DNA from: Thiohalobacter sp. IOR34
Lineage (GTDB): Bacteria > Pseudomonadota > Gammaproteobacteria > Thiohalobacterales > Thiohalobacteraceae
Assembly: GCF_030406045.1 (NCBI RefSeq)
Contig: NZ_CP128988.1
Coordinates: 593,438-657,437 of the forward strand
DNA length: 64,000 nt
Reading direction: 5' to 3'
Shown: positions 2,897-52,450 of the stretch, piece after piece
Position numbering within the stretch: position 1 is the first letter of the stretch
Layout: each line of letters opens with the position of its first letter
Position numbers and translations under genes: made by a program
The notes under the pieces: generated by a model
Databases searched by the model: none
The model's input: only the letters and a program-made list of their open reading frames with translations
Told to the model about the DNA's origin: nothing

Positions 2897-3177
2897 CCAC
2901 GGAAAACACGGACGATCGTTGGGGAGCCGGAAGACAGGGGGTAGGAGCGGCCCCCAGGCCGCGATGCGGCGCAAAGCGTTGGCATAGAATTCAGAATCCA
3001 GAATTCAGGAGCCAAGAGTAGGAGCGGCCTTCAGGCCGCGATGCGGCGCAAAGCGCCGCCATAGAATCCAGAAGTCAGGAGGAATTGGGGCAGCCTGATT
3101 CGTCAGGCTTCACGATTCTGGCCCGCGTAGCGGGCCATTCCCCAGAGAGATTTTCGTGGGTTTCGTGGATTTCGTGG
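2897..3177. repeat. Repeat-filled gap: two REP-like 25-mers and a CGTGG arm
   Basis: The argG-gloA spacer has no credible gene. A weak left arm (CCACGGAAAACACGGA) follows argG. Two direct copies of the REP-like unit GTAGGAGCGGCCTNCAGGCC lie at 2941-2965 and 3018-3042, each followed by GATGCGGCGCAAAGCG. A CGTGG arm identical to the one before argG lies at 3151-3177, 36 bp before the gloA start. Confidence 0.75.
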
Positions 3178-3656: not shown

Positions 3657-4256
3657 TCAGCCCCCTCCCATGAAGCGCCTCCGGATCCAGTAGTCGAGGC
3701 TCAGGTAGCGGCCGCCGCCGATGAAGAACAGCGTCAGCAGCATGATGAAGTAGGTGGCGGCGAATTCGATGCCGTTGTTGAGCATCACCAGGCTGCCGTT
3801 CTCGGTCAGCCACTCGTAGTTGCCGTATTCCTGGAGGATCTCCCTGGCCCGTTGCAGCCGCTCGACGGCGCCGATGGTACGCTCGGTGGCGAAGGGGCCC
3901 GTGGCCTCGGCGATGGCCAGCCAGCCGTTCGGCCAGTGGACGGTGACGGCGGCGACGATCATGGTGACCATCAGCGGAATGGAGATCCAGCGTACCGCCA
4001 GCCCCAGCAGCAGGAGCACGGCACCCAGGGTTTCGCTGGAGGCGGCGAGAAAGGCCAGCAGCTCGGGGAAAGGCAGGCCGAGACCCCAGTCCGGATTGCC
4101 GAACCAGGCCACCGTACTGTCCCAGTCCTGGAATTTCCGGGTGCCGGCCATCCAGAAGATCGGCACCAGGTAGAGGCGCAACGCCAAGGGCGCGAGGAAG
4201 TCTGCCGCGCGGGTGGTATCGAGTGCCGATTGCAAGGCGCGCAGCAGTCTGAGCAT
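3657..4256 (-). CDS. DoxX family membrane protein
   Basis: A 199-residue DoxX-family protein with about four hydrophobic helices: near 22-40, 60-85, 88-108 and 155-178. The family hallmark AGTRKFQDW follows the first helix, and the protein ends GRYLSLDYWIRRR. Between the third and fourth helices lies a long, mostly polar insert (about residues 108-150). DoxX proteins are inner-membrane proteins that often accompany DUF692 (MNIO) operons, where the fourth gene (HvfD-type) is a DoxX protein. Here it lies downstream of hvfABC on the same strand, separated by the glutamate-synthase-like gene and 740 bp of repeats. A link to the peptide system is inference only. Confidence 0.82.
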   Translation of the reverse strand: MLRLLRALQSALDTTRAADFLAPLALRLYLVPIFWMAGTRKFQDWDSTVAWFGNPDWGLGLPFPELLAFLAASSETLGAVLLLLGLAVRWISIPLMVTMIVAAVTVHWPNGWLAIAEATGPFATERTIGAVERLQRAREILQEYGNYEWLTENGSLVMLNNGIEFAATYFIMLLTLFFIGGGRYLSLDYWIRRRFMGGG

Positions 4257-4995
4257 GAAAGTCTCCCCGGATTTGTTCTTCGCCTATGGAGAAGACCCTG
4301 GGGCCTGGTTTTGGTTCCCGCTGCCTGGCGATCGGCCAACCTGCTTTCCTGAAACTCGAATCCTTGGTGCAATATGCGGTCTGCTAGCTGCATGTTGCAT
4401 CAGGACCCCGGATGATGGCGTGCCTGGACCCGCCGGGGATCGCGGCCTGGAGGCCGCTCCTACGGGGGCATGGCGGCACCCTGGTAGGAGCGGCCTCCAG
4501 GCCGCGATTGCCTGAATCCGACAGGCTGCTAGCCCGGATATTGCACCAAGGCGGCCCCTGTGATCGGAGTGCAGGCTGGTATACAAGGCCAGGAGGCTCG
4601 CAAATAGGCCCTCGTGGCGGGGTACACTTTGTGCCTATTCGATTGACTCCGGGCATCCTGCCCTCCGCCCTTCGGGCCAGCCTTGCGGCTGTTCAAAATC
4701 GCTCCCGGCGATTTTGTCAGGACGCATCTGGCTGCGCATCCTGGTCGATCCCCCTTGAACCATAGCTACGGCTATGCTTCTGCGGGTGATCGACCAACCT
4801 GCTTTGCCAGCTTCGCCCTGGGAATCGAATCCTTGGTGCAATATGCGGTCTGCTAGCTGCATGTTGCATCAGGACCCCGGATGATGGTGTGCCTGGACCC
4901 GCCGGGATCGCGGCCTGGAGGCCGCTCCTACGGGGCATGGCGGCACCCTGGTAGGAGCGGCCTCCAGGCCGCGATTGCCTGAATCCGACAGACTG
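4257..4995. repeat. Repeat cluster: MITE-1, REP pairs and a 175-bp direct duplication
   Basis: No gene is credible here. A MITE-1 right end reaches CTAG at 4384-4387. Then comes an inverted pair of REP-like 25-mers (4439-4463 and 4483-4507), then a MITE-2 end sharing CTAG 4529-4532 with a full MITE-1 copy (4529-4856). The block 4357-4532 is repeated almost exactly at 4826-4999, with two substitutions and two single-base deletions. REP units of the second block are at 4907-4931 and 4951-4975. Confidence 0.85.
4529..4856 (+). mobile_element. MITE-1 copy (longest, 328 bp)
   Basis: Non-autonomous element bounded by CTAG at 4529-4532 and 4853-4856. The left end reads CTAGCCCGGATATTGCACC. The right end reads CCTTGGTGCAATATGCGG, imperfectly complementary to the left. 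It has no transposase gene. The interior matches the reverse-oriented copy ending at 46561 over most of its length. Confidence 0.8.
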
Positions 4996-6513
4996 CTAGG
5001 CGCTGCGGCTCTGTCTGTGGTGGAGGGGTGTGGGTTCCGGGTAGAGGGTGCTGAGCAGTTCCGAGCGGCCGGCGTCGATCACCATGCGGGCATGATGGCG
5101 GCGCAGACCGCGTGGCGATGCTACGCCGCAGGAATGGGCGATGACACCCACCTCGTGCACCATGTTGCGCACATAGTTGCTGACCCGCTGCGCCTTGAGC
5201 TCGGGATCCAATCCCCGCTGCAGGCGTGGATTGTGGGTGGTGATGCCGGTGGGGCAGGTATCGCGGTTGCACTGCATGGCCTGGATGCAGCCCAGCGAGA
5301 ACATGAAGCCGCGGGCCGAGACGGCGAAATCGGCGCCCATGCACAATGCCCAGGCGACCCGTGCCGGGGTGATCAGCTTGCCGGAGGCAATGACCCGGAT
5401 GCGCTGCCGCAGGCCGTGCTCGATCAGGGTGTCGACCAGCAGCGGCAGGGCCTCCCTGAGCGGCAGTCCCATGTTGTCCAGCAGGCTCATCGGGGCGGCG
5501 CCGGTGCCACCCTCCGCGCCATCGATGGTTATGAAGTCCGGGGCGCTCTCGATGCCGCGGCGATGGATCTCCTCGCACAGCTTATCCAGCCACTCAGTCA
5601 TGCCCAGTGCGGTCTTGAAGCCGACCGGTTTGCCGGTGCTCAGTCGCACCTGCTCGATCATGTCCAGCAGTTCGCCGACGTGATTGATCTCCGGGTGGCG
5701 GTTGGGGCTGGCCGAGTCGGTGAAGGCCGGGATGCCGCGGATGCGGGCGATCTCTTCCGTCACCTTGGCTGCCGGCAGGATGCCGCCCTTGCCGGGCTTG
5801 GCCCCCTGGCTGAGCTTGATCTCGAACATGCGCACCTGCTCATGCGCGGCCACCTCGCGCAGGCGGCTTTCGCTGAGCCGGCCATCGGCATCGCGCACGC
5901 CGTACTTGGCGGTGCCGATCTGCACCACCAGGTCGCAGCCGCCTTCCAGGTGATAGGGCGACAGGCCGCCTTCCCCGGTGTTCATCCAGCAACCGGCCAG
6001 TCGTGCCCCATGCGACAGGGCGCGTACCGCCGGGCGCGACAGGGCACCGTAGCTCATGCCGGAAATGTTGAGGATGGCGCTGGTCGTGTAGGGCTGCCGG
6101 CAATGGGGTCCGATGGTGAGGCTGCGCGCCGGCGTGGCGTCCTCGCCCAGGGTGGGGAAGGCGCAGTTGACGAAGAAGATGCTGCCTCGTGTCTTCAGAT
6201 CGCGGGTCGAGCCGAAGGGTACCGTGCTGTCGATATCCTTTGCCGCCCGGTAGACCCAGGACCGTTCGGCCCGGTTGAAGGGCAGTTCCTCACGGTCCAT
6301 GGCGAAGAAATACTGGCGGAAGAAGGTGCCGATGTGCTCGAACAGGTAGCGGAAGCGGCCGATGACCGGGTAGTTGTGGCGGATGGCGTGGCGGGTCTGG
6401 CTGATGTCGATGACATAGAGGACCACGACCGCCAGCAGCAGCAGACCGAGCAGGAGGATGAACAGGGTGGCGATGAATTCCAGTGCAGGGATGATGAAGT
6501 CGTTTTCGAACAT
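4996..6513 (-). CDS. FMN-binding glutamate synthase family protein
   Basis: A stand-alone homologue of the GltB FMN/synthase domain, 505 residues, with one or two N-terminal membrane segments (about 10-35) that glutamate synthase lacks. The FMN barrel motifs GMSYGALSRPAVRALSHG (near 190) and DGAEGGTGAAP (near 330) are present. A 3Fe-4S type cysteine cluster, CIQAMQCNRDTCPTGI, lies near 418-433. There is no amidotransferase domain, so true glutamate synthase activity is doubtful; the family role is unsettled. The last codons run to a TAG stop (4996-4998) that is part of the CTAG of an adjoining repeat end. Same strand as, and downstream of, hvfC. Confidence 0.88.
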   Translation of the reverse strand: MFENDFIIPALEFIATLFILLLGLLLLAVVVLYVIDISQTRHAIRHNYPVIGRFRYLFEHIGTFFRQYFFAMDREELPFNRAERSWVYRAAKDIDSTVPFGSTRDLKTRGSIFFVNCAFPTLGEDATPARSLTIGPHCRQPYTTSAILNISGMSYGALSRPAVRALSHGARLAGCWMNTGEGGLSPYHLEGGCDLVVQIGTAKYGVRDADGRLSESRLREVAAHEQVRMFEIKLSQGAKPGKGGILPAAKVTEEIARIRGIPAFTDSASPNRHPEINHVGELLDMIEQVRLSTGKPVGFKTALGMTEWLDKLCEEIHRRGIESAPDFITIDGAEGGTGAAPMSLLDNMGLPLREALPLLVDTLIEHGLRQRIRVIASGKLITPARVAWALCMGADFAVSARGFMFSLGCIQAMQCNRDTCPTGITTHNPRLQRGLDPELKAQRVSNYVRNMVHEVGVIAHSCGVASPRGLRRHHARMVIDAGRSELLSTLYPEPTPLHHRQSRSA

Positions 6514-6567: not shown

Positions 6568-7338
6568 TCAGCCTTGAACGGCGGCTCGGGTGCTGCCTGT
6601 CAGGATGCCGCGTTGCCGCCAGTCCTCGAGCAGTTGCCGGCCGAATTCCACGAGCCGGGTAGGCCGTTCATGCCGTAGCTCTGTGGCGATGCGCAGCAGC
6701 AGTTGCCGGCCGCTGGCATTCTCCGCGTTCGCGGCGAGCAGGTCGCGGAGCCGGGCGCTGACCGGGTTCAGCTCCAGGAAACGCACCTCGTCGTCGGCAT
6801 CGCGGTAGGCCAGCAGCCGGGTTGCCTCGGGGGGCGCTGTCCGTGGCTGGAAGTCGGGGCCGATGCGATGCACGGGGAAGCGGTAGTCGAGGGGCCAGGC
6901 CAGTGGCGAGAGCCGGGGGCGGCCCTCGAGCAGGTCGCCCGACGGGTCCTCCCCCGGAAGCTGGCTGGCCTCCGCCACCGACAGGGCGAGTTCGACCCAC
7001 TCGTAGTGGACCAGCTCACGGAGAAAGGGCGGATCCCGCGGGTCGGCTGGTCGTTGCTGATCGAGAAAGTGCAGGAACTCGCGGGGGATGTCGAGGAAAT
7101 AGGGGGAGCTGGCACGGTGCCGGACGAGAAAGTCGCGGATCAGTGCCTCCCAGGCCGCGTCGTCGAGCAGGCTGCGCAGCACCGGCAGGGTGCCGGCCAG
7201 AAAGTCCTGCAGATTGTTGAAGAACAGCGCTTCATAGATGCGCATGCGGCGGGCCTCGACGCCGGCCGGCAGGGGGTTGTGCCGGGGGTCACGGATGCGG
7301 GCCGCAAAGGCCTTTTGCAGGGCCAGGGTGTCAGCCAT
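6568..7338 (-). CDS. hvfC: HvfC-like RiPP maturation partner (former DUF2063)
   Basis: 256-residue protein of the HvfC/BufC family. The N-terminal domain (about 1-95) is the DUF2063 fold, with [12 protein letters not shown] and [20 protein letters not shown]. The C-terminal part (about 130-250) is a variable beta-rich region. In characterised systems this protein partners the DUF692 oxidase and probably presents the peptide; it has no catalytic residues of its own. The start at 7338 overlaps the hvfB stop by 8 nt, so the two are translationally coupled. Role assigned from family plus operon order A-B-C. Confidence 0.85.
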
Positions 7339-8230
7339 GGCCCCGTCGTCCCTGTGTTACAGCTCGAACCCCATTCATGCGAGCCGCCTTGGTGCTAGGC
7401 AACGTGGCCTGTTGCAGGGCGCGGATCCGCGCCAGTTCCTCGAGCAGATCCTCCAGCGGGGGTATGTCGAAGTCGCGTTCCAGCAGGGTCGGGAGGTTGC
7501 CAAAGCGGGCATAGGCCTGCTCCAACAGCCGCCATACCGGATCGACCACGGCGGCGCCATGGGTGTCGATCAGCAGATCCTCGTCCTCCCGGTAATGCCC
7601 GGCGATGTGCAGATAGCTGATGCGATCCCCGGGAATCCGCTCGAGGAAGGCCCCGGCATCGTAACCGTGGTTGATGCTGTTGACATAGACGTTGTTGATA
7701 TCGAGCAACAGCTGGCAGTCGGCCTCTTCGAGTACGGCGAGCAGGAAATCGATCTCTTCCATCTCCTTGCCAGGCGTGGCGTAGTAGGAGACGTTCTCGA
7801 TGGCGATGACCTGTTCCAGGATCTCCTGGGTGCGGCGGATACGGGCCGCGACATGCCTGATCGCCTCTTCGGTGAAGGGCAGGGGCATCAGGTCGTAGAG
7901 ATGGCCGTCGTCGCTGCAGTAGCTCAGGTGTTCACTGTAGTGTCGGATCCGGTGTTCGGCGATAAAGCCCTTGAGCCGGCCGAGGAATTCCTCGTCGAGC
8001 GGGGCCGGCCCGCCGAGCGAGAGCGACAGCCCGTGGGCCAGAAACGGATAACGTTCGGTGAAGCCGCGCAGGGCCTTGCCGAATCGGCCACCAACGCCCA
8101 TCCAGTTTTCCGGTGCGATCTCGAAGAAGTCGATGGCCGGGGCAGGGTGGTCGGCGAGCGGACCCAGCAGGGTCCGCCGCAGACCGAGCCCGGCGCCCTC
8201 TGGCAGACAGGTATCAGGGATCACGGGCAA
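7331..8230 (-). CDS. hvfB: HvfB-like DUF692 multinuclear non-heme iron oxidase (MNIO)
   Basis: A 299-residue TIM-barrel iron enzyme that, in characterised relatives, oxidises cysteines of a peptide precursor. Candidate metal ligands are visible in the family motifs: FFEIAPENW near 36, HGLSLSLGG near 67, HYSEHLSY near 96, AIENVSYY near 143, DINNVYVNS near 175, HIAGH near 208, DTHG near 222 and ERDFD near 250. All are intact, so the enzyme should be active. The last ~23 residues (from [10 protein letters not shown]) are encoded by a degraded MITE-1 end at 7339-7398 and so are probably a recent non-family tail. Confidence 0.92.
7339..7398 (-). repeat. MITE-1 end remnant inside the 3' end of hvfB
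   Basis: This stretch matches the MITE-1 end at about 20674-20733 over some 55 bases with a handful of differences, but lacks the outermost ATATCCGGGC before CTAG. It codes the C-terminal tail of HvfB in frame and abuts the hvfC start. Confidence 0.7.
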
Positions 8231-8240
8231 GTGCCGGCAT

Positions 8241-8666
8241 TCACTTCGTCATGCCGGTGCCGCACTTGCCTTCCTTCATCTTGGACTCGGACTTCATCTT
8301 CATGCCGGCACCGCACTTGCCTTCCTTCATCTTGGACTCGGATTTCATCTTCATGCCGGCACCGCACTTGCCTTCCTTCATCTTGGACTCGGACTTCATC
8401 TTCATGCCGGCACCACACTTGCCTTCTTTCATCCTGGATTCGGCCTTCTCCTCCGCATGTTCCGATTTCTTCTTCATCATGCTGGCGCCGCATTTGCCTT
8501 GGCCGCAGCGGCCTTCCATGCTGTCGTTCGAGGCCAGGTACCCGCTGGTCAATTCCTCGACCTGGAAGGGATTCTCGCTGGCCGCGGCCGGGCCTGCCGC
8601 CAGGGAGCCGGCAAGGGTGGCGCCGAGGGCCAGGGCGAGGGACTTGGGTAGGGGACGATTGGACAT
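8241..8666 (-). CDS. hvfA: HvfA-like repeat-rich Cys precursor peptide (RiPP metallophore/bufferin type)
   Basis: Secreted precursor of 141 residues from the ATG at 8666, chosen because TGGAGG lies about 10 nt upstream; the longer frame starts at 8681. The N-terminal signal peptide is [20 protein letters not shown], about residues 9-28. The mature part carries six Cys, each in an (E/Q)G(K/R)CG motif: [10 protein letters not shown], then four EGKCG. The last four are spaced exactly 17 residues apart by a Lys/Glu/Met-rich linker ([10 protein letters not shown]). In the known HvfA and bufferin peptides, EGKCG cysteines are converted to copper-binding heterocycles. Methionines in the linkers could add copper ligands. 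Eleven bp upstream of hvfB. It looks intact and is unusually repetitive. Confidence 0.9.
8260..8440 (-). repeat. 51-nt tandem repeats within hvfA
   Basis: Three complete 51-bp units at 8260-8310, 8311-8361 and 8362-8412, plus a diverging partial unit from 8413. They differ at only a few bases, implying recent slippage or recombination. Each encodes one EGKCG motif and a 12-residue linker. Confidence 0.9.
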
Positions 8667-8780
8667 GATGTTTGCCTCCATTTCTCTGCTTTGTTGTTAC
8701 CCGGTGTTCTGCTGTGGCCGGGCGTCGGTTGCCGCTTGCGCGGGCTGATCCGGGATCGGACCGGTGCTGCTGTCCGTTTC

Positions 8781-51769: not shown

Positions 51770-52450
51770 ATGATTGCAATCAGGGGATGTTCCCGGCGCC
51801 TGCTGCTGGCAGCAGGACTCGGTCTTGCCACCCTGGTCCAGGCCGGGGAAGGGGTGGGTGAGAAACCGGAGGGCTGGGTCGCCCGGGCCCAGTTCACCCG
51901 CGGCATCGAGAACCGCGAACCGGTCGATGAGGTGGTGATCCTCGGCAACGACGAGACCGAGATCTATTTCTTTACCGAGCTGCGCCGGCTTGCGGGCCAC
52001 ACCGTGACCCACCGCTGGGAATACCGCGGGCAGGTGATGGCCGAGGTGCCGTTCAAGGTCGGCGGGCCGCGCTGGCGGGTGTATTCGCGCAAGACGCTGC
52101 GGCCCGGGCAGACCGGTACCTGGACGGTGGTGGTGGTGGACGAATCGGGCTGGCCGCTGCAGGCCAGTGTCTTCAAGTATCAGGATGCGGCGCGGCCGGT
52201 GGAGGGCGAGGGGCGGGTTGGCCTGCCGCCTGCGCCGCCGGTCGAGGAGCAGCAGGCGCCGGCCGAGACGCCCCGGGAACCCTCCATGTCTCCGAACTTG
52301 CCCGCGTCCCGGGAGAGTTCCCAGGAGAGTCAAGGGACTCAGGACACTCAGAACACTCAGGAGACTCAGGAGACTCAGGAGACTCAGGAGACTCAGGAGA
52401 CTCAGGAGACTCAGGAGACTCAGGGGGCGGGCGAGGCTCCCGGGGACTGA
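51770..52450 (+). CDS. DUF2914 exported protein with TQE repeat tail
   Basis: 226 residues. Signal peptide (RRLLLAAGLGLATLVQAG, about 9-26). DUF2914 domain: ARAQFTRGIENREPVDEV near 38, HTVTHRWEYRGQVMAEV near 76 and GTWTVVVVDESGWPL near 118. The C-terminal ~85 residues are disordered, Pro/Glu/Gln-rich, ending in ten TQ(E/D/N/G) triplets from a 9-bp tandem repeat. Start at 51770 follows GGAGAGGAGG. The tail overlaps the convergent neighbour by 31 bp. Confidence 0.83.
   Translation: MIAIRGCSRRLLLAAGLGLATLVQAGEGVGEKPEGWVARAQFTRGIENREPVDEVVILGNDETEIYFFTELRRLAGHTVTHRWEYRGQVMAEVPFKVGGPRWRVYSRKTLRPGQTGTWTVVVVDESGWPLQASVFKYQDAARPVEGEGRVGLPPAPPVEEQQAPAETPREPSMSPNLPASRESSQESQGTQDTQNTQETQETQETQETQETQETQETQGAGEAPGD
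52337..52426 (+). repeat. 9-bp tandem repeat (VNTR) in the DUF2914 gene
   Basis: Ten units of ACTCAGGAG, the middle seven identical, encoding Thr-Gln-Glu. Copy number should vary by slippage without frameshift, because the unit is a multiple of three. Confidence 0.9.

Follow-up and report, generated by a model that had tools for sequence, protein, structure and literature searches.

An EGKCG-type HvfABC-X operon with a single-motif repeat array in its precursor in Thiohalobacter sp. IOR34

We found that a 64,000-nucleotide stretch of the Thiohalobacter sp. IOR34 genome (hereafter the window) carries a locus that is very probably an HvfABC-X operon of the EGKCG type (captophorin/oxazolin), which would make a periplasmic Cu(I)-sequestering peptide to which a tandem repeat array adds sites. 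The operon belongs to a known family, within which it differs by having a single motif in each 17-residue unit. Counts in public genomes already run to thousands of EGKCG captophorin clusters (PMC12452194, PMC12668002), and taken by itself this operon is one more among them.

Maturation genes

The hvf genes lie on the minus strand. hvfB (7331..8230; TTG start at 8230, with GTG at 8224 possible) encodes an MNIO (DUF692/PF05114) maturase (352 bits; NF003818, 426.9 bits against a cut-off of 360), and hvfC (6568..7338), which shares 8 nt with the 3' end of hvfB, encodes a DUF2063 plus RRE-type partner protein with PF09836 and PF22106 (NF050145, 311 bits; cut-off 142). The operon extends past 6568 on the same strand, with a glutamate-synthase-like gene followed by hvfX (3657..4256), which encodes a DoxX-like membrane protein (NF050144, 244.5 bits; cut-off 80). 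HvfB, HvfC and HvfX all passed their NCBIfam equivalog cut-offs and hvfB and hvfC are both intact, in agreement with an earlier note that had recognized an HvfABC-type operon with an intact DUF692 oxidase and an HvfC partner.

Residues H66, H101, E145, D177, N179, H208, H212, D222, H224, E251 and D253 were invariant in all 125 HvfB homologues, and we take these His, Asp, Glu and Asn positions to be the expected metal site. HvfB aligned with 3bww (E = 3.5e-77) and HvfC with 3dee, the structures that the captophorin paper gives as the two solved members (PMC12668002). The specificity determinants of FonB are Arg15-Arg16 and Asp249-Phe250 (PMC12668002); the window HvfB carries LGLRR and RDF, a match by motif, and so shares with fontiphorin (FonABC, Fontimonas thermophila) and the captophorin class a Lys-Cys group MNIO with Arg-Arg and Asp-Phe. 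Two other assignments were rejected: bufferin (Buf1/DUF2282; BufB), for which there was no PF10048 match and NF050167 scored 275.8 bits against a cut-off of 310, and methanobactin (MbnABC), for which the MbnB-family model TIGR04159 scored only 45.8 bits against a cut-off of 325. A simple scan for promoters and terminators detected no promoter-like site; its one terminator-like site was weak and fell inside a gene. An Rfam search gave no match.

The precursor and its repeat array

The precursor gene, hvfA, was first read as an open reading frame of 146 residues (8241-8681, minus strand). Its start is probably the ATG at 8666, 15 nt inside that frame, because GGAGG lies just upstream and aligned relatives begin with MS- or MT- at this point, so that the hvfA-like gene would span 8241..8666 and encode 141 amino acids. 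The product consists of an N-terminal signal-like segment, a conserved NPFxxxELxSGY segment, one motif doublet and four isolated EGKCG motifs. By eye, the leader has a basic start, an Ala/Leu-rich stretch and an AAAS-like cleavage region, all conserved in relatives; a simple hydropathy window (mean above 1.6) did not flag it. The product passed the HvfA-family domain model NF050137 over four stretches (31.5 bits; cut-off 19.5) and failed the strict equivalog NF050188, which describes H. influenzae-like HvfA (37.7 bits; cut-off 95). Judged by these models, it belongs to the same broad family as HvfA and lies outside the strict equivalog.

Six (E/Q)G(K/R)CG motifs occur in the frame, and measured from start to start they lie 5, 25, 17, 17 and 17 residues apart. 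A 51-nt (17-residue) tandem array occupies 8249..8448 on the minus strand and comprises three full units that are identical in protein and a shorter, partial fourth unit that ends the protein (Tandem Repeats Finder: period 51, 3.9 copies, 93% match, score 344). The top 51-mer self-match within hvfA was 51/51, compared with 27-32/51 in 15 codon shuffles, so the array is not a product of chance. Between pairs of full units, 3, 2 and 1 of the 51 nucleotides differ, and every difference is synonymous. The spacings, the period and these differences confirm the six motifs, four of them exactly 17 residues apart in near-identical 51-nt repeats, that the earlier note had described, and its reading of a multivalent precursor is likewise supported; the signal peptide that it saw would be a Sec-type leader. 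An AlphaFold2 prediction of HvfA with 12 relatives had a mean pLDDT of 48 and no beta-helix; it is uninformative beyond a hint of disorder. Elsewhere in the window, the repeat scan found a tandem array of the 9-nt unit CAGGAGACT (52322-52424; 11.4 copies, 90% match).

Repeat arrays in related precursors

We surveyed 126 hvfB loci, which yielded 108 precursors, 102 of them distinct. These homologues share the NPF..ELxSGY segment and EGKCG motifs; they carry between 2 and 16 motifs (median 6) at spacings of 5 to 60 residues. Motifs spaced 17 or more residues apart occurred at least once in 39 of the 102 distinct precursors, and 26 had three or more isolated motifs. The Met fraction of the window precursor, 0.21, ranked 6th of 108, and Met-poor precursors were common. 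On these counts we rejected the proposal that the long or Met-rich linkers are unusual for the family. A precursor from the relative G093 (L119/L164) has much the same plan: after a single doublet, its EGKCG motifs stand alone, in near-identical units rich in Met, Lys and Asp. The period is 18, against 17 in the window precursor; the HvfB of its locus shares 58% identity with that of the window and sits elsewhere on the HvfB tree, and for these reasons the two arrays are probably independent.

Three or more equal spacings above 5 in succession were found in 8 of the 102 distinct precursors including that of the window; the seven other single-motif arrays have periods of 10, 11, 12, 13, 14, 15 and 18. 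The arrays are scattered over separate places of the HvfB tree, and closely related species differ in motif number (10, 12 and 14 in Neptuniibacter; 5 and 2 in Nitrosomonas), which indicates that single-motif arrays probably arose repeatedly. The 17-residue period itself was already published for the family, in precursors with a variable number of repeats and two EGKCG per unit (PMC12452194), and up to 58 Cys have been described in published precursors. The run of identical 17-residue repeats is a recent, species-level version of a feature known in the family. A recent expansion of the repeats is supported, and so is variation of their number between species, as seen on the HvfB tree. The genome set included no congener, and a scan of genome contigs found no near-identical locus.

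It is conceivable, although we would not favour it, that slippage in low-complexity DNA left the array as a neutral side effect with no gain in copper capacity. Repeat number changes fast and many species have their own array, each with its own period and sequence, as such a process would produce, but the three full units of the window are identical in protein and differ only by synonymous changes, as do the units of L070, L071 and L119. This pattern suggests either selection or recent homogenization, which are inseparable with so few changes.

Two further kinds of precursor were noticed. HvfA-type precursors with EF-hand-like DxDGDG segments occur at L161:5485-5883, L160:4829-5740, L162:794-1207 and L163:1417-1833 and in L036, L083 and L121, some of these carriers being relatives from the same family as the window's genome; the segments are mostly embedded between EGKCG motifs. 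In the published case, the EF-hand-like part is fused at the C-terminus (PMC12452194). The window's own genome also encodes a second HvfA-like precursor (L157:1928-2338, minus strand; G000:C1, about 1475930-1476340), an orphan in that no maturase gene lies next to it; it carries two EGKCG motifs, and a similar small protein is present in G001 (L158:1447-1746). It is possible that the orphan is modified in trans by the HvfBC of the window.

Proposed function

The closest characterized systems share most of this gene content. Like the window, the oxazolin (HvfABCX) cluster of nontypeable Haemophilus influenzae has an MNIO HvfB, a DUF2063-RRE HvfC and a DoxX-like HvfX; its precursor is of the Sec type, as the window precursor may be, and its HvfA also has EGKCG motifs with six motif Cys (PMC13419390). 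However, these form three AEGKCGEGKCG doublets, whereas the window precursor has one doublet and four single motifs in 17-residue units, and only the window has a flavoenzyme-like gene between C and X. Fontiphorin and the captophorin class share the EGKCG motifs and multi-site modification, but the seven sites of FonA fall in LysC peptides of two to three motifs each and the fon cluster has only a precursor, an MNIO and a partner protein (PMC12668002). Buf_EGKCG/oxazolin type-1 clusters encode a precursor with a signal peptide and 17-residue repeats, an MNIO, a DUF2063 protein and a DoxX protein, as does the window, where the signal peptide is putative; their units contain two EGKCG each (as in L070, EGKCGEGKCGGDKASKS) rather than one, and the model of a mid-size member is a beta-helix (PMC12452194), unlike the low-confidence model obtained here.

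Fontiphorin, oxazolin and gonophorin contain 5-thiooxazole (PMC12668002), an earlier oxazolone-thioamide assignment having been revised (PMC12668002, PMC13419390), and Cu binding has been demonstrated for fontiphorin and gonophorin (PMC12668002). By analogy with these relatives, from which we infer the chemistry, export and copper role of the window operon, HvfA would be synthesized with a Sec signal peptide and presented by HvfC to HvfB, which would turn the (E/Q)G(K/R)CG cysteines into 5-thiooxazoles with a mass change of about -4 Da each, or about -24 Da for all six. After export, the modified peptide would sequester periplasmic Cu(I). Recent in-frame tandem duplication would have produced the 17-residue array, which would add binding sites, and the linkers would act chiefly as flexible, basic spacers.

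Related clusters respond to metal excess (PMC12668002) or to HOCl (PMC7907618), and the main role of the peptide might instead be to counter oxidative or hypochlorite stress at the envelope, copper being of lesser importance and the Met-rich linkers oxidizable. We think this unlikely. The homologous cluster of H. influenzae is induced by HOCl under RpoE2 (PMC7907618), and the HvfX and FMN oxidoreductase-like neighbour in the window operon would suit such a role, but purified EGKCG products bind Cu (PMC12668002) and precursors poor in Met are widespread in the family.

Returning to the copper-sequestering peptide, the precursor's score below the strict HvfA equivalog cut-off and the absence of a promoter-like site in the simple scan weigh against this reading. 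In addition, FonBC modified a two-repeat peptide and left a one-repeat peptide unmodified (PMC12668002), and for this reason isolated EGKCG motifs 17 residues apart may be modified less well than adjacent ones. Taken to its limit, this result and the Met/Lys-rich linkers would fit modification of the N-terminal doublet only, with the isolated motifs remaining as free thiols (together with Met) in a tail resembling a metallothionein or a redox buffer, but this is improbable, given that precursors of mostly isolated motifs are common (26/102 with at least three) and keep the HvfB/HvfC pair, and that the whole EGKCG is unchanged across the repeat units, as expected if it is read by the enzyme. 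The need for adjacent motifs is suggested by a single published in vitro result (FonBC, PMC12668002). With a doublet and identical isolated motifs in one protein, the window precursor is a natural test substrate that can show whether HvfBC has this need.

A flavoprotein beside hvfX

The gene between hvfC and hvfX (4996-6513, minus strand) encodes a membrane-anchored FMN glutamate-synthase-like protein of 505 amino acids; its N-terminal part has two hydrophobic stretches, and the protein matches the glutamate-synthase FMN domain PF01645 (290 bits). In the set of relatives, 13 of the 23 orthologues of this flavoprotein in hvfB-bearing genomes lie within 7 kb of hvfB, where 0.14 would be expected; among 369 genomes of the class, which partly overlap that set, the count within 8 kb of hvfB is 25 of 62 (0.4 expected). 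The binomial P values for this neighbourhood assume independent genomes. Kinship among the genomes violates that assumption, but it falls far short of explaining an excess of this size. The identical A-B-C-G-X order, contiguous, occurs in G001, a genome of the same family. In 22 genomes no more than 300 bp separate the flavoprotein gene from hvfX, and four of these have no hvfB nearby, which argues that its primary link is probably to HvfX. A conserved neighbourhood of this kind is evidence for, not proof of, a shared function.

The MNIO papers searched, including the text of PMC12452194, make no mention of this link, although supplementary tables outside that search, such as Table S1 of PMC12668002, may list it. 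We tentatively raise the possibility, which we hold to be less likely than not, that the flavoprotein is an undescribed extra part of EGKCG captophorin operons, paired with HvfX and acting, for example, as a reductase for the HvfB iron or in membrane copper or thiol handling. On the same reading, the isolated-motif array would show that HvfBC is able to act distributively on isolated sites. If the flavoprotein is truly in the pathway, it could bear on the function of HvfX and on the electron source of MNIO enzymes; the flavoprotein-HvfX pair is a modest side lead. Between the flavoprotein gene and hvfX lie two near-identical blocks, about 467 nt apart, that consist of REP-like palindromes (GTAGGAGCGGCCTCCAGGCCGCGAT and its complement; window 4348-4999); the palindrome also occurs at 3018-3042, and similar sequence is found elsewhere in the same genome (L157).
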